This document shows, piece by piece, positions 19,301 through 59,500 of a DNA stretch of 64,000 nucleotides; the stretch's first letter is position 1; every line of letters starts with the position of its first letter. The stretch lies in the NCBI RefSeq assembly GCF_018143015.1, contig NC_054740.1, positions 17,777,190 to 17,841,189 on the forward strand, written 5' to 3'. The notes under the pieces are model-generated. The model did not search any database. It was not told the DNA's origin and saw only the letters and a list, made by a program, of their open reading frames with translations. The translations under genes and the position numbers were made by a program. The stretch is from Lytechinus variegatus. Its lineage: Eukaryota; Echinodermata; Echinoidea; Temnopleuroida; Toxopneustidae.

Positions 19301-20755
19301 AAATCAGGAAAAAGTCGTCAAAATGTAAGTTCCCCTTCATTTCTTTCAATTTTTTGTTACTTATTAGAAAATAAATGTCTCATTAAAGCAAAATTTCAAC
19401 AAAAGCCTCAAATTTAGCTATTACTTTTGTTGAAATTACAATAAATTTAGATCCACATAAATCTCTAACCCAATTTTAGCACTGATGTCGCCTATGAGGT
19501 CCATACATGTAATGTTTGGACCTCATTGGTACTAGGAGTGATTAGCCTGGGGCGTTTTGGGGAGTGAAAGTTATATACTGTACGTAGTCACTCCCCACTA
19601 ACGCCTGGGTTTCCTCCCTATACTTCCCCACATACGGGTACAAAACCAGAAACTTTCGCCCCCGAGAATTCTACTTTCCCTCTAAAAGATCTAGCCCTAA
19701 AACATGTACATGGGGTCCAACTTCATTTCCAACATTTCAGCGATATTGATTTCATTTATAAAGAAGAATTCATTAAAAAAACGAGAGATTTGTTTTGAAA
19801 AGATGGAAAGAGCACGCAAATCGCGCGATTTGCGTGCTGTCGCCAAGCGGAAGACAAAGAAATCAAGATGGCGACGTAAACACGGAAGTAAGCTCTTTCC
19901 ATCTTTTCAAAACAAATCTCTCGTTTTTTTAATGAATTCTTCTTTATAAATGAAATCAATATCGCTGAAATGTTGGAAATGAAGTTGGACCCCATGTACA
20001 TGTTTTAGGGCTAGATCTTTTAGAGGGAAAGTAGAATTCTCGGGGGCGAAAGTTTCTGGTTTTGTACCCGTATGTGGGGAAGTATAGGGAGGAAACCCAG
20101 GCGTTAGTGGGGAGTGACTACGTACAGTATATAACTTTCACTCCCCAAAACGCCCCAGGCTAGGAGTGATTGCATTGGAGATACCCGCTGCCTTATAAAA
20201 CACGGACAAGTCCTTGGCTCCGGCCCACTTTGTGGGCCTGTGATCCCTGGGTTAGGGATGTCAGTGTCAAACTCAAATTTTGTCTGCAAATAAAAACATG
20301 GCAATATAAAAAAATAAACATTTTATGTCATAATTAAATACATTTCAAGATTTCACAAAATATTGTCGAGATGGAAATTATCTAGTCTACATTAATGACA
20401 TTGGCTTGCAAATTATATACTAGTATTCAACAAACATTGATGCCAAATTTCATTTTGTGAAAAAAATATTTCAGAACAAAAATATTTTAAAAAGTAGGGA
20501 TCGTACGTCGAGTGTGCTAAAACGGGGATTCTACTTATGTGTAATTCGTAAGCAACCATCAAGGAATCGTGCTAACGCCGATTACGTTGTGTGCATCAGA
20601 TATTGCATACGGTGATAATATGAGTGGCCCACTGTTATTCGTACCTTTTTGATGTTGTATAGTCTTGCAAGCATTCCTGTGCCACGATCATTGAGAATTG
20701 AAAGTTTTTCAGCCAGCTTGAGCTGGCCTTGAGATACAGGCATCCTGCTGGACAT
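1358..20755 (-). CDS. NCKAP1: NCKAP1 (Nap1/Hem family), WAVE regulatory complex subunit; N-terminal half, 16 exons
   Basis: NCKAP1 pairs with CYFIP in the WAVE regulatory complex that controls Arp2/3 actin branching at the membrane. Exons, in transcript order: 20755-20645, 11925-11818, 10648-10556, 9463-9407, 8659-8517, 8011-7921, 7209-7072, 6942-6894, 6394-6238, 5584-5528, 5227-5131, 4732-4570, 3830-3739, 3330-3249, 2274-2070, 1490-1358. All junctions are GT-AG, phases agree, and the total is 1776 bp, or 592 codons, about half of a roughly 1,130-residue protein; the rest lies beyond the left edge. Recognisable blocks include [16 protein letters not shown] (residues 12-27), [65 protein letters not shown] and CTHELCPEE. 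The first of two in-frame ATGs (20755) is used; the second is four codons later. Intron 1 is 8.7 kb and repeat-filled. The 7209 acceptor was preferred over one 7 bp downstream because only it keeps frame and family length. The family call is essentially certain. Confidence 0.96.
4318..4523. mobile_element. Short MITE-like repeat in an NCKAP1 intron
   Basis: About 205 bp bounded by inverted ends: GGGGTGCGCTTCACAAAGAG on the left and a TTTGTGAAAAACCCCCC end on the right. The TTCACAAAGA and TCTTTGTGAA ends are complementary. It is non-coding. A related fragment with a GGGGTGCTTCACAAAGATT start lies at 10376. The superfamily is not determined. Confidence 0.55.
5283..5518. repeat. Polypurine tract (GGA/GAA-rich) in an NCKAP1 intron
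   Basis: The plus strand is almost entirely A and G (AGGAGGAGGAAGAGG type) for about 230 bp between the exons at 5131-5227 and 5528-5584. It produces long Ser/Leu-rich minus-strand frames that are low-complexity artefacts. NCKAP1 is transcribed through the pyrimidine-rich strand. Confidence 0.8.
8862..9152 (-). mobile_element. tRNA-derived SINE in an NCKAP1 intron
   Basis: Read on the minus strand, the head resembles a tRNA. It has an A-box-like TAGCTCAGTCCAT and a B box GGGTTCGATTCCC (9085-9097 region), roughly 50 bp apart, so an internal RNA polymerase III promoter is present. The head is followed by a non-tRNA body containing GGCAAGGCATTGATCCTCAT, a motif typical of deuterostome SINE bodies. 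The leading strand is the same as that of NCKAP1. The body length and the missing acceptor-stem pairing argue for a SINE rather than a tRNA gene. The 3' boundary near 8862 is approximate. Confidence 0.78.
9496..9992. mobile_element. TTAA-flanked MITE, AGGGGAAGTTCACCC family
   Basis: About 497 bp with inverted ends AGGGGAAGTTCACCCTGA and GGGTGAACTTCCCCT, flanked on both sides by TTAA. A central TGACGTCA-containing segment is roughly mirror-repeated. A TTAA target site plus an AGG/CCT terminus fits Kolobok- or piggyBac-mobilised non-autonomous elements. There is no coding capacity. Diverged relatives occur at 15960-16310 and inside the 54.6 and 55.5 kb duplicates. Confidence 0.8.
10376..10492. 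repeat. Fragment of the TTCACAAAGA-ended repeat
   Basis: Starts GGGGTGCTTCACAAAGATTC, sharing its end with the element at 4318. The partner end (GGGGTGTGAGAAACAAC) is degraded. Non-coding, in the NCKAP1 intron between exons 10556-10648 and 9407-9463. Confidence 0.4.
12790..12920. repeat. Dispersed GGGCGCAAATCCCAGGGGG repeat
   Basis: A C/G-run-rich segment containing TGGGCGCAAATCCCAGGGGG followed by two CCCCCTACTATT / AATAGTAGGGG stretches in inverted arrangement. It has the look of a common non-coding repeat of marine deuterostome genomes. Boundaries are uncertain. Confidence 0.4.
13212..13382. repeat. 98-bp tandem duplication, purine-rich
   Basis: A segment beginning at about 13212 (AAAAAGTGAACGAAAGAAAA) is repeated 98 bp downstream at 13310 with very few differences (for example AAGAGAAAATAG versus AGGAGAAAATAG). 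Two copies, non-coding. Confidence 0.85.
13545..15611 (+). mobile_element. GGATCC-ended non-autonomous DNA element, full length, with internal GCGAGC array
   Basis: 2067 bp. The ends are CAGGGGCGGATCCAGCC and CTGGATCCGCCTATG (inverted), flanked by an exact 5-bp target-site duplication, TTAGC, at 13540-13544 and 15612-15616. Inside, about ten degenerate units, mostly some 100-200 bp apart, each carry a core close to GCGAGCGCGAAGCGCGAGC followed by GAAAATTTTTGA. G-runs and a pyrimidine-rich tract sit just inside the right end. There is no open reading frame of note, so it must have been mobilised by another element's transposase. Copies occur at 24741, 50365 and 59159. Confidence 0.85.
15960..16310. 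mobile_element. Degraded TTAA-MITE fragment
   Basis: The stretch with CTCGCATATACGCCGTCACA and TTTTTTCTGCTATTTTCATA parallels the right half of the MITE at 9496-9992 (CTCGCATATGACGTCACAAA, TTTTTTCTGCTATTTTTACA). The terminal repeats are lost, so it is an old, truncated copy. Confidence 0.5.
16351..16520. repeat. ATC/ACC-rich microsatellite
   Basis: Interrupted (ATC)n and (ACC)n triplets, for example ATCATCATCATCACCGCCAC. No reading frame or other signal is attached. Confidence 0.85.
17845..17918. repeat. Inverted repeat around GAAACATTGACTTCCGAGTT
   Basis: GAAACATTGACTTCCGAGTT is followed about 30 bp later by AACTCGGAAGTCAGTGTTTC, giving a 20-bp stem with one or two mismatches. A related half site (GAAACATTGACTTC) occurs at 17210, so this is probably a small dispersed foldback repeat. 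Confidence 0.65.
18165..18368. repeat. Polypurine tract with GA repeats
   Basis: The plus strand is largely A/G, with GAGAGAGAGAG runs. The minus-strand Ser/Leu/Pro-rich frame across it is low-complexity, not a gene. Confidence 0.75.
19544..20161. mobile_element. 618-bp foldback element, two 270-bp arms, 10-bp TSD
   Basis: The left arm is 19544-19813 and the right arm 19892-20161. They are inverted copies with no difference that I could see, joined by a 78-bp loop. The ends are AGCCTGGGGCG and CGCCCCAGGCT. The flanks carry an exact direct duplication, AGGAGTGATT, at 19534-19543 and 20162-20171. The loop opens with a perfect 26-bp palindrome (19812-19837). Arm identity means recent insertion or gene conversion. 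A 9-10 bp TSD with long terminal inverted repeats is typical of Mutator-like MITEs, but the superfamily is inference. Frames on both strands give the same start and end peptides, as expected of identical arms, and are not genes. Confidence 0.9.
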
Positions 20756-30500: not shown

Positions 30501-31176
30501 AGCGTGCTTCAACCATTAGATTAACACTGTACACTCCTGATGAGTGGCTGAGTGAGTGCCTAGTTAGTAATCATGTCATGATGATGAATTGAATTATTTT
30601 TTGTTTGATAATATTACCATGATTAAAACAAGTGGTCACTCTCATCTCACTGAGTGAGAGAGGCTGCTACAGTGAAGACTACACAGTCGACTGGGCACTG
30701 GACAAATATTCCTCTGCTCTTGCTCTGCCCCCCCCCCTGTTCTGAAAATAAGAGGGAGGCTGCCTGCAAAAAAAAGGAAGTGGGTGGGGCCAGGGTCATA
30801 ACACATGTTATTTTATCACTCTTGGTTTTTACAGTTGAATGTGTCTAGAAATCCTTAATAGTTGAACAAAATTGATCCAAGTTTCACCTCAACAATGGAA
30901 GAAAATAAGAAAGACCTTGATTTTCAGACAGGTGCCTGTAATAACTGGTGCAAGGCCATGATACGGATAATATTCAGATGCACAGTAACTAATCCAGCTG
31001 GGCTCCGGCGGCAGGGGTGGCCAGTGGTGAGGCCAGGTATAATTTAGAGTTTTGGCAGTTAGCTGAGGGAATCTTTGAAATCTACATGATTTTAAATTGT
31101 TAACCTCAAATTGTACCATTTTTGTTCTATTTCTAGATTGTTTTACAATTGTGTCCTGCATGGTGAGGACTTTAAT

Positions 31177-34100
31177 ATGAAGAAGATTCTTATCACTGGT
31201 GCATCTGGACTCCTTGGCCGGGAACTCTTCAAAACTTTTCAGGACTCTGGGTGGGACGTTCTTGGACTGGCTTACACCAGAGCTAAAGAGAACTTCAGAA
31301 AAGTGGACTTGACAGACAGTAAAGCCATACAGGATGTCATCATGGGATATCAGGTGATTTTAATTTATCACCCCCCCCCCCTTTTTTTTCACTCAGGTCA
31401 CTCTTTTTCATAGCAGTATATTATGTAGAAGTTAGACATTATCTGTCTCAAGTAGGAAGCATTTTGAAACAGAGATTATATTTTCCTTATAAATGTCTTC
31501 TAGTCATCAATTCATGTTTTTTACTCAAAGTAGAAAAAGAGGAATGAAACACAAAAATAATATATATATATTGTCAAGGAATCTTGAGTTAAGATTAAGA
31601 TAAGATTTCCATGCAAACTCATAATTTGTTAACATAAATAAGTCCTTTTATCTATTTATTTTTTTTGAGAGAGATAGCAGTCTTAGATAGCATAGAACCC
31701 ATCCATAATTAAAAAGGAGAAGGTTTTCAACCAAGGCCAACAAAAGTATTCTTCATTGTATCATACTTTGATTTGTGAATCAAAACTTGCATTTCAATCA
31801 GTGTAACATAGCTATATTTATTTTGTTCCTGATAATCAAATAATTCCTGGTTGCCTTAGGATGGGTACATCTCATATGACTCATAATAATGTTATGTTGC
31901 AGCCCGATATTGTTATCCATGCAGCAGCCGAAAGGAGAACAGATGTTGTAGAGAGAGACCCACAGACTGTTCAAAAACTCAATGTAGGTGCCACAGCTCA
32001 AATTGCTGCAATTTGTGGTGAGATACCAAGTTTTTTTCCATCATGAAATTGTGTACTGTTTATGGGAAGGATCTGTGTGGATTCACTGACCTTTCGTACT
32101 GAACATGAACCTTATAAAGATATCAGTCTAGTTTGGGTCATTCCTGCATTGGTCAAGTTTCCAAACTGTAAATCAGTACAGGGAATTGATTCATATTCCA
32201 CAGCACTAATATTTTTGGGCCAATGATGTATACCACACTTGACCTGGATGAGGGAAATGTTTATGTGGCAAAAATGGATTCCTTGAATTGCAAAAGTGCC
32301 TTTAAGGCAGCTATGCTAAAGCTAGTCGTGGATGCCATTATTTGTGAGTGCTATACAAGAAATATTTGGTAAATTTGTACAGTTCGGGAATATTCTCTAT
32401 TTTATAATATAAACTAGCAAGGTTAGTCATGTTTTGTGTGTAATTTGACCCCACTAATTTTTAATAAGAAATTCAAAAGTAATTGCTTCTTTTGATTTAA
32501 GTGAAAGTTATTTTGTATTATTTATAATGTTATTGATGGTAAGAAAATAAGAAACCAATATGGAAGTATATAGTTTAAAGTAGGAGCATTCATTTTTTAT
32601 TTGAATGGTGATGTTATGCTTTGTATGTATCATCATGCAATAAATTATCGCTAGTGCATTTTCTAATTAATATGGAGAAATCTATATAGAACAGAAAGAA
32701 TATGTAATTGCATATAATGGTAATGTGTTTATTTGACAGGGAAACTGGGTATCTTGTTGGTTTACATCAGTACAAATTATGTCTTTGATGGAACAAAACC
32801 TCCATATAAACCTTCAGATGAACCCAATCCACTTAACAAATATGGTCAGAGCAAGCGTGATGGTGAAATAGCAACTCTTAAAAACTATCCTGGTAAGCGT
32901 ACATTATTACCTTCACCAAGAAGTGATTTCAAATATGATTTCCTACTTTCAACACAGTATCTTTCTTTATTTTTCATAAATTGATTTATTTTACATATCT
33001 TTGAAATCAAGTAATATATCAATTTGTATGCAGATTCTAAAATTATCCAAAGGTATAGTATTGTGATGACCAAAAGAATACTTTGTGCATTGAATTTGAT
33101 TGGTTAGATGGATCTTTGTTAACATATTTAATTTCCCATTCTGTTTCACATATATATTTTCATTAGAGTCAGAAGTTGCATAGAAATAGCAGTTACAGTT
33201 ATAAAAGTGTTTAGCAGTCAATAAAAATCAAGGTTTTCACTGATATTGAAATTACAAGAAAACTTGTAATTGATGGCAACTTTTGTTATACAGAGCCCTA
33301 ATTTTTTGTCTGAATTAAGCACTAGATTGCAGCAAAAACATTTTTACCTTTGAGGTTAATGAGTTCATAGGTCATAGAGGTCATTGTAAATTTGATTTTT
33401 TTTTATAACTAAAGTAGGCCTACCCTTTATGGATCAAACTTTGCTTGTCATTTGGAGGTCACAAGGACAAAGGTCATAGCCCATTATCACAATACTTTGC
33501 ACATCCAAGAGATGATTGGTTCAGAAATGTATATGAGAGTGATGAAAAAATTTCATATTTCAAAGTAAATTTGATAAGTTTTAAACTATTTGCAACTTTT
33601 ACAGTGCACTGTCTGGATTGCTACTTGGCAATGGAGTCATTAATACAGGATTTTTAATTACAGGAGCAGTGATCCTAAGATTACCCCTACTCTATGGTAG
33701 CATAGAGAGACTAAATGAAAGTGCAGCAACCTATCTTCTACATCAGATCCAAGATACAAGTAAAGTCCTGCAACTCTGTGACTACCAACAAAGAAGACCA
33801 ACTCATGTCAGGGATGTAGCTTCAGTGGTAATACAACTAGTGCAGAGACATTGTAAGGTGAGTTCAGGATTCAATACTGAATATAACAGTTGCAGATTCA
33901 ATGAAAAAAACAATGTGACTCTAAATTTCGAACTTAATTTTTAGGTGGTAAATTTTGTCTATTATGCTAGAGTATATTGTAAAATACATCAGCAGAATAT
34001 ATATATATATCTCAGGTAAGTTGTCATCATTTCCCTGAAATAATCATCATAAACGAATTGTGCATGCTTTATTGGATATTTATGTATTCATCCAAAATTT

Positions 34101-34613
34101 TATATCAGCTTTTATATCAGCTTTTGTTTGGTTGGACTTAAGTTTAACACTGTATGACATTTCAGGTATGAAGGTAGCATTTTTGCAAAACTCAAAATGT
34201 AACTAAATGAATTGTCAACTGCACGAATGTTAACTGGAAAAAGGTATTACGATACTTGATATGTGGATGATTGTGATGCTCAGAGTGAATGGTATATTAC
34301 TAGAAGAACTTAACAGTTTTATGCATTATCATTTTCATAATTATTTACCATGAAGGGAGAGGGGGTTTCAGGCATCCTACATTGGAATACATCAGAACAA
34401 CTCACACGATACCAAATGGCTCTTATCATCACTGATATCTTCAAACTCCCTATGGATCATCTTAAACCAAACCCCAACCCTCCTTCCACTGGCACACCCC
34501 GCCCACACAATGCAACCATGGACATCTCAACTATAAATGCCCTTGGGGTCAAAGTTACAGATACGCCATTTCGGAAGGGTATCGAGGAATGTTTGACTCC
34601 TCATCTGTGTTAA
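31177..34613 (+). CDS. MAT2B: MAT2B, regulatory (beta) subunit of methionine adenosyltransferase II
   Basis: MAT2B binds the catalytic MAT2A subunit and modulates S-adenosylmethionine synthesis; it belongs to the extended SDR family related to dTDP-4-dehydrorhamnose reductase. Exons: 31177-31353, 31903-32017, 32740-32892, 33664-33857, 34356-34613; 897 bp, 298 residues plus TAA, with consistent GT-AG phases. The Rossmann motif GASGLLG is at residues 8-14 and HAAAERRTDVV follows exon 2's start. YVFDGTKPPY is at 111-120, YxxxK is Y132-K136, LPLLYG and QRRPTHVRDVA lie in exon 4, and HWNTSEQLTRYQMA is in exon 5. The ATG opens directly on KKILITG. However, TTCTATTTCTAG at 31135 looks like an acceptor, and the frame is open from there to the ATG, so a further upstream exon could extend the N-terminus, as in vertebrate isoforms. 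The last acceptor (ATGAAG|GG) is weak but fits the family alignment. Confidence 0.95.
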
Positions 34614-46790: not shown

Positions 46791-46983
46791 AATCACTGAA
46801 CTAGAAATACGCCCCGCGCAATCAGATGAATGCAATTAACGGACTGCATACCGCCACCACCAAAATCACTGAACTGTGACATATACCCTGGATGAATAAA
46901 GTGCACTCTCACTGGGGAGCATCATTGTTGAGATAAAAGGTATAGAATCACATTCACAACGTCATTACAAGACGTCTTTCATA

Positions 46984-47074
46984 ATGGCGAGATTTGGTAA
47001 ACACCTATGGATAACGCTGACCTTCTTATCAATTGCTTTAAATTGCTTCCTTTTCTTCGGCGGGAACATCTTTG
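46984..47074 (+). CDS. Duplicated first exon of a type II membrane protein (paralogue or decayed copy)
   Basis: Encodes MARFGKHLWITLTF and a hydrophobic anchor ending ...FFGGNIFG, followed by GTAAGT, leaving phase 1. It matches the exon at 56502 in length, phase, residue pattern (MARxxxxxWIxLTFxSxAxNCFLxF) and in the upstream segment CCGCCACCACCAAAA with ACTGAACTG. No second exon like 61434-61564 was found between here and 56 kb, so it may be a stranded copy, an alternative first exon of the same gene, or a separate gene whose later exons I cannot recognise. The intact frame and donor argue against long neutral decay. Function unknown. Confidence 0.6.
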
Positions 47075-48469: not shown

Positions 48470-49415
48470 TAATGCGAGCAAGAAGCAAGGGTTTATTTTT
48501 TCGGATATGTATACCTGAAATGGAACATTGCATGTGATCGTGAATATCTCTGAAACATTAGTATATCAAATAATGTCAGTGCAAAGCTGTAATTTATGAT
48601 ACTGACCTGAAAACGGGACATTTTGTATAAGCGCATTTTGTAATAAGCAGGAAACATCTCCAGAACATGTCTTCTAAAAGAAATAATGCGAGCGCGAAGA
48701 GCGAGCTGAATCTTTTGAGTATGCATGAAATGAAAAATAATTTTAAAGGACAAGTCCACCCCAACAAAAACTTGATTTGACTAAAAATTGAAAAATTCAA
48801 CAAGCATAACACTGAAAATTTCATCAAAATCGGATGTAAAATAAGAAAGTTTCGTTTATTTTCAACAAAATAGTTATATGAACGAGCGGGTTACATCCAA
48901 ATGAGAGAGTTGATGACATCACTCACTCACTATTTCCTTTGTATTTTATTATATGAAATATGAAATATTTTTATTTTCTCGTCATTGTCATTTGAAATGA
49001 AGTTTCATTCCTCCCTGAACACGTGGAATTCCATTATTTTAACATTTTGTGCTTCAGGCAAAGAGCTCCTAATCGTCAAATTCATAAAAATTGAAATATT
49101 GTATAATTCAAACAATAAAAAACAAAAGAAATAGTGAGTGAGTGACATCATCGACTCTCTCATTTGGATGTAACTGGCTCGTTCGTGTAACTATTTTGTT
49201 GAAAATAAGCGAAACTTTGAAATGTCATAACTTTCTTATTTTACATCCGATTTGATGAAATTTTCAGCATTGTGCTTGTCTGATTTTTCTCTATTGATTC
49301 AAATCAACATTTTCTGAGGTGGACGTGACCTTAATGACTAATGTTTTTGCATAGAAACTTTTGAATATGATGCGAATCTCAATAGATTAATAATGCGAGC
49401 GGAAAGCATGAATTG
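48470..49415 (+). mobile_element. GCGAGC-family remnant interrupted by a MITE
   Basis: GCGAGCAAGAAGCAAGGG (48475), GCGAGCGCGAAGAGCGAGC (48687) and GCGAGCGGAAAGCATGAA (49395) are degenerate cores of the GGATCC-ended family, without its termini. The MITE at 48747-49330 lies between the second and third. Confidence 0.6.
48747..49330. mobile_element. TTAA-flanked MITE, second AGGTCAAGTCCACC-family copy
   Basis: Starts AGGACAAGTCCACCCCAAC and ends GAGGTGGACGTGACC, with TTAA directly outside both ends. It includes AAATAGTGAGTGAGTGACAT and the mirrored GTTACATCCAAATGAGAGAG, shared with the other copies. Confidence 0.85.
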
Positions 49416-53103: not shown

Positions 53104-53943
53104 TTATCTTCCTTTCCTCTTTCTCGGTGCGAGATAAAATTTATTCCATTCTGGAAATGGGGATTATTTTCATGAAGATGTATAATGAGAGCATTAAATT
53201 TCTTAAAATTAAGGACTGAAAACTGGACATTTAAGCACTTTTGTATATGGATAGGATGCGTGCATGGGCTATATATTTTAACAATGAGTGCGAGCACAAA
53301 TCACGAGCCGAAATGTTTGATAACCTATAATGAAAAGGGAATTTTAAGTAGTTTGTTATAGAATTGATATTATGGTAATATTATTATATAGAGGTATGCA
53401 TAACTCACCAATCAAAATGCGAGTGCGCAGCGCTATGATAGGCCTGGGTTTTAACAAACCTGAAAGGGACATTTTGAGCACTTCGTTGAATAAACGAAAA
53501 CAATAATGTACTTGAAAAATCAAATAATGTTATCGCGCAGCGCGATCTGAAATTTTTCCCCAGAATATTTGAACAGGGTGGCCTGATCAGCACAAAAAAA
53601 ACATAGTAACAGGACATTATGAGATACAGAAAAAAAAGGAACAAAAACAAAGTAATTTACTAGAATATTTTACGAGATAGAGATGACAAGATACATGATG
53701 TAAACATTTATATATTTATATTCAGACCATTAAACTGACATTTTACAGAGCATTTAAAAAATGAATTTTTAAATCAAGCAAAATAATGAAATTTCGATGA
53801 CCGAGCTGAAATCTGTTTCGTATATTGACTTCAAAAAATGATATTTTAAGCTCCCTTATATCAGTATATTGAGCAAGATATGTATTTCATCGAACAGGCA
53901 GCAGTTCAGTTGTTTTGGTGGTGTCGGTATACAGGATTTCGTC

Positions 53944-54117
53944 ATGGGAGTGATCATTTCCCTCGCCCTATTCATCGCGTGGTCGGTGCCAGGTAAAAAT
54001 GGTAGAAGTAATAATGGCAGAGGTAAAAATGGCAGAAGTAATAATGGCAGAGGTAATAATGGCAGAGGTAAAAATGGCAGAGGTAAAAATGACAGAGGTA
54101 TAAATGCTGAGTCTTAA
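53944..54117 (+). CDS. Signal-peptide-like ORF running into NGRG repeats, left arm (hypothetical)
   Basis: From the inner ATG at 53944 the frame reads MGVIISLALFIAWSVPG, a hydrophobic stretch like a signal peptide or anchor, then KNGRS/NNGRG pentapeptides, and stops after P begins. The frame extends upstream to 53869, but that part comes from the transposon junction. GGTGCCAG|GTAAAA at the end of the hydrophobic part could be a splice donor, in which case the repeats are intronic and only a leader exon is present. The inverted copy at 56328 differs by two Ala-to-Val changes in 17 residues. No family is recognised. Confidence 0.3.
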   Translation: MGVIISLALFIAWSVPGKNGRSNNGRGKNGRSNNGRGNNGRGKNGRGKNDRGINAES

Positions 54118-56049
54118 ACTCCCATGCCAAAATTCTCAAAGCCCCTCCATGTACAGTATACTGTACATGGAGGGGCTTTGGGAATTTTTGGCATGGGAGT
54201 TTAAGACTCAGCATTTATACCTCTGTCATTTTTACCTCTGCCATTTTTACCTCTGCCATTATTACCTCTGCCATTATATACTGTACATGGAGGGGCTTTG
54301 GGAATTTTTGGCATGGGAGTTTAAGACTCAGCATTTATACCTCTGTCATTTTTACCTCAGCCATTTTTACTTCTGCCATTATTACCTCTGCCATTTTTAC
54401 CGATGCCATTATACCTCTGCAAAAATAAGAAAGGTTCTGAGAAGAAAATAAGAATTACAATGTTGGACTATTGGAAAAGATTACACATTTAAATCATACC
54501 GAATTGATAACACTTGAATTGGTATTTCTTATTTTTCCTGGACTTACATGCACGGTCTTTTATGTCAAATCGCTCTTATAATACTTTGAAGCTCACTTTG
54601 AATCCCAAGTATTGTAATTAATTCATTAAAGGGGAAATTCACTCTGACATAATAAAGTTTATCGTAAAAATAGCAAACAATTATTAACATGATATTGATG
54701 AGAGTTTTAGGGAATCCAAAGATTTCAAAAGCTATTAAAATTTTGTATTTTAATGATGATGTCATTTGCGAGCAGTTTTTTCCCATATATACGGTGTAAT
54801 AAAAAAAATGAAAAATGTCTATTGTACCTTAAGTATGTCAACATACAAATCATTTCACATCCGCTCCTGAAAGATTTTTTTTAGCATATCATGATCTTTA
54901 CCTCTGCCATATTTGCCTCTGCCACCTTTACCTCGATCTGCCAGTTTTAACTCCGTATACCTCTAGCTGCCATTTTTACCTCTGCCATTTTTACCTCTGC
55001 CATTATTACCTCTGACATTTTTACCTTTGCCATTTTTACCTCTGCCATTTTTACCTCTGCCATTATTACCTCTGCCATTATTACCTTTGCCATTATTACC
55101 TCTGCCATTTTTACCTCTGCCATCATCCTCTGCCAGTATTACCTCTGCCATTATTACCTCTGCCATTTTTACCTCTGCCATTATTACCTCTGCCATTATA
55201 TACTGTACATGGAGGGGCTTTGGGAATTTTTGGCATGGGAGTTTAAGACTCAGCATTTATACCTCTGTCATTTTTACCTCAGCCATTTTTACTTCTGCCA
55301 TTATTACCTCTGCCATTTTTACCGATGCCATTATACCTCTGCAAAAATAAGAAAGGTTCTGAGAAGAAAATAAGAATTACAATGTTGGACTATTGGAAAA
55401 GATTACACATTTAAATCATACCGAATTGATAACACTTGAATTGGTATTTCTTATTTTTCCTGGACTTACATGCACGGTCTTTTATGTCAAATCGCTCTTA
55501 TAATACTTTGAAGCTCACTTTGAATCCCAAGTATTGTAATTAATTCATTAAAGGGGAAATTCACTCTGACATAATAAAGTTTATCGTAAAAATAGCAAAA
55601 AATTATTAACATGATATTGATGAGAGTTTTAGGGAATCCAAAGATTTCAAAAGCTATTAAAATTTTGTATTTTAATGATGATGTCATTTGCGAGCAGTTT
55701 TTTTCCATATATACGGTGTAATAAAAAAAATGAAAAATGTCTGTTGTACCTTAAGTATGTCAACATACAAATCATTTCACATCCGCTCCTGAAAGATTTT
55801 TTTTAGCATATCATGATCTTTACCTCTGCCATATTTGCCTCTGCCACCTTTACCTCGATCTGCCAGTTTTAACTCCGTCATTTCTACCTCTAGCTGCCAT
55901 TTTTACCTCTGCCATTTTTACCTCTGCCATTATTACCTCTGACATTTTTACCTTTGCCTTTTTTACCTCTGCCATTTTTACCTCTGCCATTATTACCTCT
56001 GCCATTATTACCTTTGCCATTATTACCTCTGCCATTTTTACCTCTGCCA

Positions 56050-56328
56050 TCATCCTCTGCCAGTATTACCTCTGCCATTATTACCTCTGCCATTTTTACC
56101 TCTGCCATTTTTACCTCTGCCATTATTACCTCTGCCATTATTACCTCTGCCATTATTACCTCTGCCATTTTTACCTCTGCCATTTTTACCTCTGCCATTA
56201 TTACCTCTGCCATTATTACCTCTGCCATTATTACCTCTGCCATTATTACCTCTGCCATTTTTACTTCTGCCATTTTTACCTGGCACCGACCACACGATGA
56301 ATAGGACGAGGGAAATGATCACTCCCAT
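56050..56328 (-). CDS. Signal-peptide-like ORF running into NGRG repeats, right arm (hypothetical)
   Basis: Minus-strand frame MGVIISLVLFIVWSVPG followed by KNGRS and about 14 KNGRG/NNGRG repeats, ending where CCTCTGCC breaks the 15-bp phase. The start lies about 170 bp from, and divergent to, the start of the plus-strand membrane-protein exon at 56502, so a shared promoter is possible. As in the left arm, CCAG|GTAAAA at the leader end may be a donor. Repeat-derived coding potential alone is weak evidence for a gene. Confidence 0.35.
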   Translation of the reverse strand: MGVIISLVLFIVWSVPGKNGRSKNGRGNNGRGNNGRGNNGRGNNGRGKNGRGKNGRGNNGRGNNGRGNNGRGKNGRGKNGRGNNGRGNTGRG

Positions 56329-56501
56329 GTCGAAATCTTGTATACCGCCACCACCAAAACAACTGAACTGTTTGTGTGGCCTGAAAAGTGCACTCCAGCA
56401 ATCTCACTGGATGACTGGGAGAGCTCGAGAGTAGTCACGTGTAATGTTTGTAGGCCTACATTATCAAAACCCCCCAAAACCCATCGTTGTGCAAGCCTGT
56501 G

Positions 56502-59500
56502 ATGATGGCGAGATGGAGGTATTTTTGTAAATTCTTTTGGATAGCGTTAACCTTTTCATCTGTTGCATTTAACTGTTTTCTCCTCTTCAGGAACTTCTTT
56601 GGTAAGTATGTACATTGTACTTTCATTTGCATTGATACGTACATGAATTATTCAGACCATGTCACTTACAGAATTAGATTATATACTTAATCTGTTCTTA
56701 ATCAGATCAGGGAATATAATCATGATAATAAGAGGCTCTAGTGCTGTCTACTACTTCTACTTCGATTTCCTGCGTTGTGAATTTGGTTGAGACTTCTTTG
56801 CAACAGTAGTTTAAGACAATGTTATGGTGAGTTGGTAACATGATTTGTCGTTAATTCACACAAATAGCTATATAGAGTTATTCAACCGGCCGGGGCTATT
56901 TCAGATACAATACCGAACGAATACCCCTCTTCCCCCCTGTCCACGGCTAGCTCTTGCATTTACCGCTTGTGTGATCTAGCCTAACATCACCATATAGATC
57001 GCGGGGTAGATCGTAAACGTGAGAGAATTGCTTATTGTCGAATGTGAGTGTCAGGGCAGATTACCCCGCACATTTGATTTCACTGCCAGCCGAAAAGCTA
57101 TAGACCCATACTGGCTGGCATTGTTTCATTAATTGATTGTTTGCTGTTTTGTATGCTTCGTATGCCGTATCGTTTTGTTAAATTAGAGACGAGGTGACTC
57201 AGGCACATATTATTTGTTTTCTTATTTTGCCTAGTCTTATGTACATGAATTGAAATGTATTGAAATTAAGATTATAAGACTGAAATAATACCGTTGCATG
57301 TACAGCCTTGCTTGCCTGCATATATATCTCGACCACAGACAGGAAATAAAAATTTCCTTCTGTAGTTCATGATTACACTACTGAGTTCTCACAATTCATT
57401 CCCTGGTTATTCGATCGATGGAGGTATTCACCATGGACCTATATCATATACTGCATAGTAGTTCCATGGAGCTATTAATACATGTTTAAAGGACAAGTCC
57501 ACCCCAACAAGAACTTGATTTGAATAAAAAGAGAAAAATTCAACAAGCATAACACTGAAAATTTCATCAAAATCGGATGTAAAATAAGAAAGTTATGACA
57601 TTTCAAAATTTCGCTTCATTTCACAAAAACAGTTACATGAACGAGCCAGCTATACATCCAAATGAGAGAGTCGATGATGTCATTCACTCACTATTTCTTT
57701 TGCTTTTTATTGTTTGAAATATGAAATATTTTGATTTTCTCGTCATTGTCTTGTGAAATGAAGTTTCATTCCTCCCTGAACACGTGGAATTCCATTATTT
57801 TAACATTTTGTGCTTCAGGCAAGGAGGTCCTAATCGTCAAATTTCTAAAAATTGAAATATTGTATAATTCAAACAATAAAAACAAAAGAAATAGTGAGTG
57901 AGTGACATCATCAACTCTCTCATTTGGATGTAACTGGCTCGTTCATATATCTATTTTGTTAAAAATAAGCGAAACTTTGAAATGTCATAACTTTCTTATT
58001 TTACATCCGATTTTGATGAAATCTTCAGCATTGTGCTTGTCTGATTTTTTTCTATTGATTCAGATCAACATTTTTCTAAGGTGGACTTGACCTTTAAGTT
58101 AGCTCCATGCATATGCACGTAATATGCGGGACGTTATGTCGTTTGACCATGCATGAGCGTGTCAAAAAGTCGTGTCGTCATGTCTACAAGTCGTCCATGG
58201 ATCAACGGCGACAAATACAGGATATCACCTTTGTCATTCAGTTTCGCACTGGTGCAATATGTGCTCAAAAGTTAATGAACCCCACCACAAAATGCACTCC
58301 TTCATCCCGGGGGGGCCACTTCCATTCACGAGTGGATACCATGCACGACCATGGGATCTCGAAAAGCACCCTAAACACGTAATTTCCATATTCTGAAAAT
58401 GCATCCCTTAACAAGTATTGGCGTGTGAAACCCTACCCTTAACAATTATTGGAAACAAAACGATACTCTTGGCAAAAATTCCCTGAAATGAACCCCTAAA
58501 CAAGTACAGGAATGTTTTATTGTTACGGGTCCTTTGGTTGTCGGCTTTATCTTATTTGGTTTAGTACGACCCCACCTTCTACACCTCGCGCAAATAGGAC
58601 TCTAAACACGTAGTGTTGGGGCAAAAAGGACATCCTTTATAAAACATTTTAATTTTGTTTTATCATCCCCGCAAACTCGACCCTAAACACGTAATTTTCC
58701 TAGCGAAATAGATACCCTTTTTTCATTATTTTTGTGTTTTTGACACCCTTTTCACGTAACGTGCCCTATCGTGAAAAGGACATCCTTTTTACGTGTTTTT
58801 CTGGTCGCGCATGGTATCCACTCGTCAATGTAAGTGCCCCCCCCCCCCGGGTCCTTCATGCTGAGTGTTGCTTGTAGACGACAACACTACAATGTTTGGT
58901 GAGCCCAGAGAAACAAACTTTGTTTGAATTTAACATTTTATCACCTGACTTGGCAATTGAATATCTGAAACACAGTAGAACTTGAACACTTTAAAACGTT
59001 CATTTTCTGGTAGGGTGCACTAACTTTTGAGCACCACTGTGTATTGTAAGCCTATAATTTTTATTCAGACGGGAATGTAATGAGCCAGAATTCAAACTCT
59101 CTCCTGATTTATTTACCATTTATTTCCCGGGTAAAACTACCGTCATTCGATCAGTAAACAGGCGCGGATCCAGGAGGGGGCCGACCCCGCCCCCCCCCCT
59201 ATTTTCTGACAACCTGCAGAAAAAAAGTGTGCTCTTTATCTTGTTAGAAACTACGAAAAACAGAAAGAAAAGTAAGAAAGAGGTATTATACCCATGATGT
59301 GTAATTTATGGCCTCGCAATGGCCGGTCCGAACCCGAAAGGAAACAAGAAAAAGGTGAGGGGAAGAATTGGAAAATAGACTTTATTTAAAAATTTTCGCT
59401 CGCGCTTCGAGCTCGCATTGCCTGTGTAATGAATCCCATTCAAAAGGATTAAATGACACTTCATATATCCAGTTCTGAAATCAATTTGCTCACAATATTT

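Follow-up and report, generated by a model that had tools for sequence, protein, structure and literature searches.

Does a palindromic block of 15-bp repeats in the sea urchin Lytechinus variegatus encode a secreted peptide, or are its repeats of another origin? The block occupies positions 53902-56370 of the window, by which we mean the whole 64,000-nucleotide stretch analysed here (G000:C1:17777190-17841189 in a genome of 869.6 Mb and 33 contigs). The first-pass annotation, made from the sequence alone, had described a signal-peptide-like leader and its inverted copy bracketing the 15-bp units beside the exon of a type II membrane protein. It proposed either a leader exon whose intron had turned into a variable number tandem repeat (VNTR) or a gene for a low-complexity secreted peptide. 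The described architecture was borne out, as the inverted arms (53902-54106 and 56166-56370) span 205 nt and are 94% complementary, and the neighbouring exon turned out to belong to a sulfotransferase gene (Sulfotransfer_2, PF03567). Neither gene proposal found support. The block is very probably a rearranged, non-autonomous foldback transposon lying beside exon 1b of the sulfotransferase gene, with one end and its host flank mirrored, and the leader is probably not a gene.

The 15-bp arrays and a 466-bp middle segment of the block are both dispersed in the genome, a feature missing from the first-pass annotation. We scored 40 of 1141 candidate places for a query made of leader plus array, and 40 of 1307 for the middle segment. 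The best matches to the former query fell on 13 contigs; outside the window the best match per place started at query base 79 to 91, which lies 6 to 18 bases ahead of the array; additional matches fell within arrays. Among 20 dispersed array places read for orientation, which are part of the family, 17 carried an array on the plus strand followed by one on the minus strand, and three (L026, L032 and L039) showed one direction only. The outer ends of the elements are of two kinds which, read inward, are GGTGCCAGGTAAAAATGG ('left') and GGCTCGGTGTAAAAATGG ('right'). A 22-base pattern of the left end, allowing at most one mismatch, was found 250 times forward and 273 times in reverse across the whole genome (523 places), and its reversed control was found nowhere.

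Left ends facing right ends were paired by a script at 29 loci, leaving out L021 and L022 (where only a right end was seen) and shorter pieces of the same places. The script returned 23 rows, or 22 elements once a second pairing within L031 was dropped; seven loci stayed unpaired, and in L025, L029, L030 and L040 the opposite array was cut off by the edge of the piece. Counting six elements with one common flank once, we obtained 17 distinct insertion sites. Direct 8-bp target-site duplications (TSDs), matching at 7 or more of the 8 bp in one of two registers, flank 13 of these 17 insertions, all except L019, L041, L053 and L055; among mismatched flank pairings used as a control, 2 of 272 gave such a duplication. 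Eight relatives (L016-L020 and L054-L056) share the order right end, array, 55-bp segment, middle segment, array in the opposite direction and left end. Given the inverted array pairs, the two end types, the 8-bp duplications and the dispersal, the arrays and middle segment are parts of a dispersed family of DNA transposons of the foldback type. The six copies with common flanks (L027, L028, L031, L033, L034 and L035) also share the target duplication GGCCAGAT; in these, the element seems to lie within another repeat and to have been copied along with it.

The window copy departs from the order seen in these relatives. Two left ends face each other with the same host flank at both, no right end lies between them, and both flanks meet the left-type end at the same base. 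From left to right it starts with L (MGVIISLALFIAW; 53902-53984, plus strand), a derived, inverted copy of an 83-bp host sequence and the host part of the leader; L is identical to the reversed 56288-56370 at 78 of 83 positions, and its homology ends at 53902. There follow the left end (GGTGCCAGGTAAAAATGG...) with an array of ~8 units (53985-54106, plus) and the forward copy of the 55-bp inner segment (54107-54160, plus), the segment that lies between array and middle in related elements. The next elements are inverted (minus strand), with a first copy of the 55-bp segment (54157-54211), 15-bp units (54222-54266), a second copy (54277-54331) belonging to a 120-bp tandem duplication (54157-54395), and further units (54342-54401). 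Then come the middle segment (copy 1, 54425-54890, plus), an inverted array (54903-55188, minus), the third inverted copy of the 55-bp segment (55199-55253, minus), inverted units (55264-55323, minus), the middle segment again (copy 2, 55347-55812, plus), a long array with 29 unit matches that ends in the second left end (55825-56287, minus), and finally L' (56288-56370, minus). These assignments came from layout comparison, together with a genome search for the middle segment and for L', the latter being placed also by the pattern of a third copy and by exon homology. A repeat search of the window put the 15-bp arrays at 53991-54106, 54212-54420, 54967-55342 and 55819-56281. The two copies of the middle segment lie 922 bp apart and are identical at 463 of 466 positions; this tandem duplication and the 55-bp segment, once forward and three times inverted, were already described correctly in the first-pass annotation. 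To the left of L, the stretch 53718-53854 is a repeat with further occurrences around 15.2 and 26.4 kb in the window.

In the window copy, unlike its relatives, the array and the 55-bp segment are reversed with respect to the middle segment, and the difference extends to the centre of the element. The relatives read CCATGTACAGTATATTAAATAAG, or nearly so, at the place where the window reads CCATGTACAG-TATA-CTGTACATGG. This palindrome centre, CTGTACAG-TATA-CTGTACAT (54146-54172, no strand assigned), is flanked by arms (54041-54145 and 54173-54277) that are 94% complementary, and comparison with the relatives suggests it as a fusion point. Two facing left ends with no right end between them were seen at no other locus compared for its layout, a comparison in which single-end pieces are uninformative and pairs were chosen for having both ends. 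Visual inspection of 100 left ends listed from the 523 (exact matches only, reaching 35 Mb on contig C4 and not including the window's own pair) showed a single convergent left-left pair no more than 10 kb apart, L053. We rejected this candidate for a second mirrored copy, as its flanks are unrelated (24 of 80 positions ungapped) and a right end lies between.

Palindromes and arrays are difficult to assemble, and a chimeric or collapsed palindrome could imitate such an arrangement. A chimera would be expected to be nearly identical on its two sides, whereas L and L' show 5 differences in 83 bases, with 7 in 122 along the array stretches beside them, which leaves an assembly artefact a very slim chance. 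It is scarcely credible, too, that the host flank was inverted and duplicated first and the transposon entered later between the copies. Transposon-free inverted duplications do exist, although nothing direct points to one here, and one ordinary insertion with one left and one right end does not leave both flanks attached to a left-type end at an identical base. The two ends of one type might also recall a product made by the transposase itself, through alternative transposition with two left ends on sister chromatids. Alternative transposition, however, is generally described as joining one left and one right end, and the TATA junction lies inside the element and not at its ends, so that we regard this origin as highly improbable. 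The process generates inversions in maize, according to the part of PMC8225341 drawn on here.

What, then, is the leader? Both copies read MGVIISL(A/V)LFI(A/V)WSVPG and, as had been noted, continue into pentapeptides, here of the KNGRS/NNGRG type. The right ATG (56328, minus strand) and the ATG of the exon (56502) are separated by 174 bp, close to the first estimate of about 170 bp. The transposon terminus starts inside this frame. Since the bases from CGGTGCCA onward are common to the family, the transposon supplies SVPG, the donor-like GT and the pentapeptides. The host part behaves differently: a 93-bp leader query found two full-length places in the genome, both within the window, and a 32-base leader pattern with at most 3 mismatches found three, again all in the window. 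The two matches to the 93-bp query led us to reject the idea that the leader itself belongs to the dispersed transposon; this search was blind to short matches and missed a 33-bp third copy.

These findings bear directly on whether a genuine leader exon, divergent from the sulfotransferase promoter and with a first intron or tail that became a VNTR, encodes a secreted peptide. In its favour, (i) an ATG and a stop-free hydrophobic run are kept in both copies, (ii) the leader lies on the upstream side of the exon of a real gene, and (iii) only 10 other frames among 1152 window ATGs followed by 17 open codons match the hydrophobicity of the right copy. In full, 25 of these frames equal or exceed the left leader in hydrophobicity and 11 the right one, copies included; tracts of simple repeats around 16.4 and 22.2 kb account for 13 of the 25, a further 10 lie elsewhere, and two are the leaders themselves. 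The hydrophobicity of the right leader is thus unusual but not outstanding. Against a leader exon, SVPG, the apparent donor and the pentapeptides belong to the transposon end present at 523 places, and a 15-bp unit lacking a stop keeps the frame open by its period alone. Two of the five differences between L and L' fall in the host-coded part, and both are non-synonymous (alanine to valine). The coding part shows no resemblance to the DNA upstream of the paralogous exon 1a (375 of 500 shuffles gave an equally good alignment), and in that DNA each of the three frames runs into a stop within 31 codons after the shared core. We accordingly hold a peptide-coding leader to be very unlikely; judged from the sequence, the 'signal-peptide leader' is probably host upstream DNA read into a transposon terminus and not a gene. 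The family's 15-bp arrays can mimic signal peptides with pentapeptide tails and are a trap for gene annotation. The arrays of two longer relatives score as Pfam Pentapeptide repeats (PF00805) above the curated cut-off (L036:2031-4711, E = 1.5e-6; L042:2600-4260, E = 8.3e-5), and that of the third, L053, matches under it.

The host DNA next to L' holds one of two related first exons on the plus strand. Exon 1b (MMARWRYFCKFFWIALTFSSVAFNCFLLFRNFFG; 56502-56601) has a GT donor in phase 1, and its ATG is ~215 bp from the right junction of the transposon, which lies upstream. Exon 1a (MARFGKHLWITLTFLSIALNCFLFFGGNIFG; 46984-47074), 9.5 kb away, is a paralogous or alternative first exon with 57% identity over 35 aligned positions (E = 8e-6) and 73% over 90 bp. 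Comparison within the window revealed a third copy of the first 33 bp of the leader upstream of exon 1a (46844-46877, minus), likewise new relative to the first-pass annotation, and this copy and L' each lie ~100-130 bp upstream of their exon. Just past the window end, an open catalytic exon of 303 residues matches Sulfotransfer_2 (PF03567, E = 7.8e-41, profile positions 2-252 of 252); both first exons end in phase 1, compatible with the acceptor CCAG|AAGTG before the catalytic exon (read by eye). NCBIfam and PDB sequence searches of the catalytic exon gave no match, and Pfam gave nothing above cut-off on the plus frames of 56.5-64 kb. As the catalytic exon had no other strong match within the 114 kb searched, a single Sulfotransfer_2 gene may start at either exon 1a or exon 1b, and the duplication of the first exon together with its upstream core possibly represents alternative promoters with different membrane anchors. 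The core of L' aligns with the DNA upstream of exon 1a better than any of 500 shuffles. L' is likely to be the original upstream DNA of exon 1b and L the derived copy, because the right side carries the exon homology; the earlier proposal of copying by inverted duplication is supported, with the right copy as the likely original. The same part of the window also holds a ~611-bp repeat (48742-49332 and 57485-58094), whose copies are 90% identical when aligned directly and 74.5% when one is inverted, so that it is itself partly palindromic.

The arrangement L-element-L' with two left ends is a plain feature of the sequence, and a short series of events could have produced it. A foldback element with ends of 15-bp repeats would have inserted upstream of exon 1b of the Sulfotransfer_2 gene. 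A break within the element would then most likely have removed the right-type end and the flank past it. The left-type end may have been mirrored by either of two routes: 1) fold-back priming on the inverted arrays or 2) the joining of two sister ends through TATA microhomology at the palindrome centre. Copying, or the breakage of a bridge, would have stopped 83 bp out in the host flank, and slippage or unequal exchange among the arrays may later have given the 120-bp and 922-bp tandem duplications. The 922-bp duplication looks recent (463 of 466 identical in the middle segment) and the mirroring older (78 of 83).

Several points weigh against this account. The break, fold-back and fusion steps, and the order of events, are deduced from the arrangement itself. 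The window copy has no right-type end, no TSD and no shared flank words, so that its own insertion is inferred from the relatives, and those relatives that carry a left and a right end were selected by a script requiring both, so they do not sample the family freely. To the left of L, the DNA likewise weakly resembles that upstream of exon 1a (11 of 500 shuffles as good, versus 13 of 500 beyond L'), and with such weak resemblance on both sides the direction of copying rests on the exon match. Finally, no transposase for the family was found in the longer relatives or near the compared ends.

Pfam searches of the longer relatives L053 (six frames), L036 (six) and L042 (four of six) returned only Pentapeptide, Decapeptide and CBM-type matches, with Pentapeptide alone passing its cut-off, in L036 and L042 only, and the plus frames of L046 gave nothing above cut-off. 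Elsewhere in the genome, 52 of 136 transposase matches (those on C1 to C3, and on C4 as far as the listed ends reach) were compared with the 100 listed left ends. In this weak test none of the P, hAT or MULE matches came within 44 kb of an end: the nearest lay at 44.6 kb for MULE (14 of 31 genome matches compared), 75 kb for P-type (16 of 42) and 270 kb for hAT (22 of 63). Five MULE neighbourhoods that were read held no 15-bp arrays.

The TU elements of Strongylocentrotus purpuratus, described in 1983-1985, reportedly have long inverted ends, an outer domain of 15-bp repeats, an 8-bp target duplication and heterogeneous middles. The layout of the family in the window agrees with this description, a likeness in layout; to our knowledge, a mirrored host flank has not been described for TU elements. 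Among the published systems compared, in the portions of the papers drawn on here, sea urchin is listed among organisms with foldback elements by PMC4079207 and is not mentioned in those of PMC3169594 or PMC3688188. The closest parallel among them is Tm1 of Meloidogyne, a Phantom-like member of Mutator/Foldback with asymmetric 7-bp terminal motifs outside the inverted repeat, followed by tandem repeats of 13-15 bp in variable number, as in the present family, one terminal motif starting with CGGT in each (PMC3169594, in part). Tm1, however, has 9-bp duplications, not 8-bp ones, and an element group with a putative transposase, whereas none was found here (PMC3169594, same part). Galileo, a foldback-like element of the P superfamily, shares long inverted ends with internal tandem repeats; it differs in having few long direct repeats and a P-type transposase, whereas the present family had no P-type match near the compared ends (PMC3688188, in part). 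The part of that paper considered here places further transposase-binding sites in the tandem repeats of Galileo and ties the element to chromosomal inversions (PMC3688188); by comparison, the 15-bp arrays are plausibly repeated transposase-binding sites. Tetris of Drosophila virilis also has tandem repeats in its inverted ends, no autonomous copy found and TSDs of 8-10 bp, and has been proposed as a Mutator member, but its repeat unit is ~220 bp and has spread as satellite-like DNA (PMC4079207, in part).

A further possibility is that the block is a composite that has captured upstream DNA of the sulfotransferase gene and bears this 83-bp piece, pointing inward, at each end; if the piece has promoter activity, the block would be transcribed from both sides as a long inverted repeat, yielding double-stranded RNA (dsRNA). 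We consider this very unlikely. If the 83-bp piece does start transcripts, dsRNA of the foldback family would be a source of small RNAs, and the usage of exon 1b versus 1a would perhaps be altered. With the block read as a rearranged foldback transposon, an apparent new gene family becomes a case of foldback transposons reshaping host DNA, in which one copy would have lost one end, mirrored the other and carried along 83 bp of gene upstream DNA. The two end sequences obtained from the relatives provide a handle for finding the family's transposase.

Two other features of the window deserve mention. Identical open frames of 76 residues lie at 19568-19798 (plus) and 19907-20137 (minus); the inverted arms that they mark measure ~230 bp or more and perhaps belong to another mobile element. 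Frames such as KILITGASGLLGRELFKTFQDSGWDVLGLAY at 31096-34613 resemble those expected for exons of methionine adenosyltransferase 2 subunit beta.

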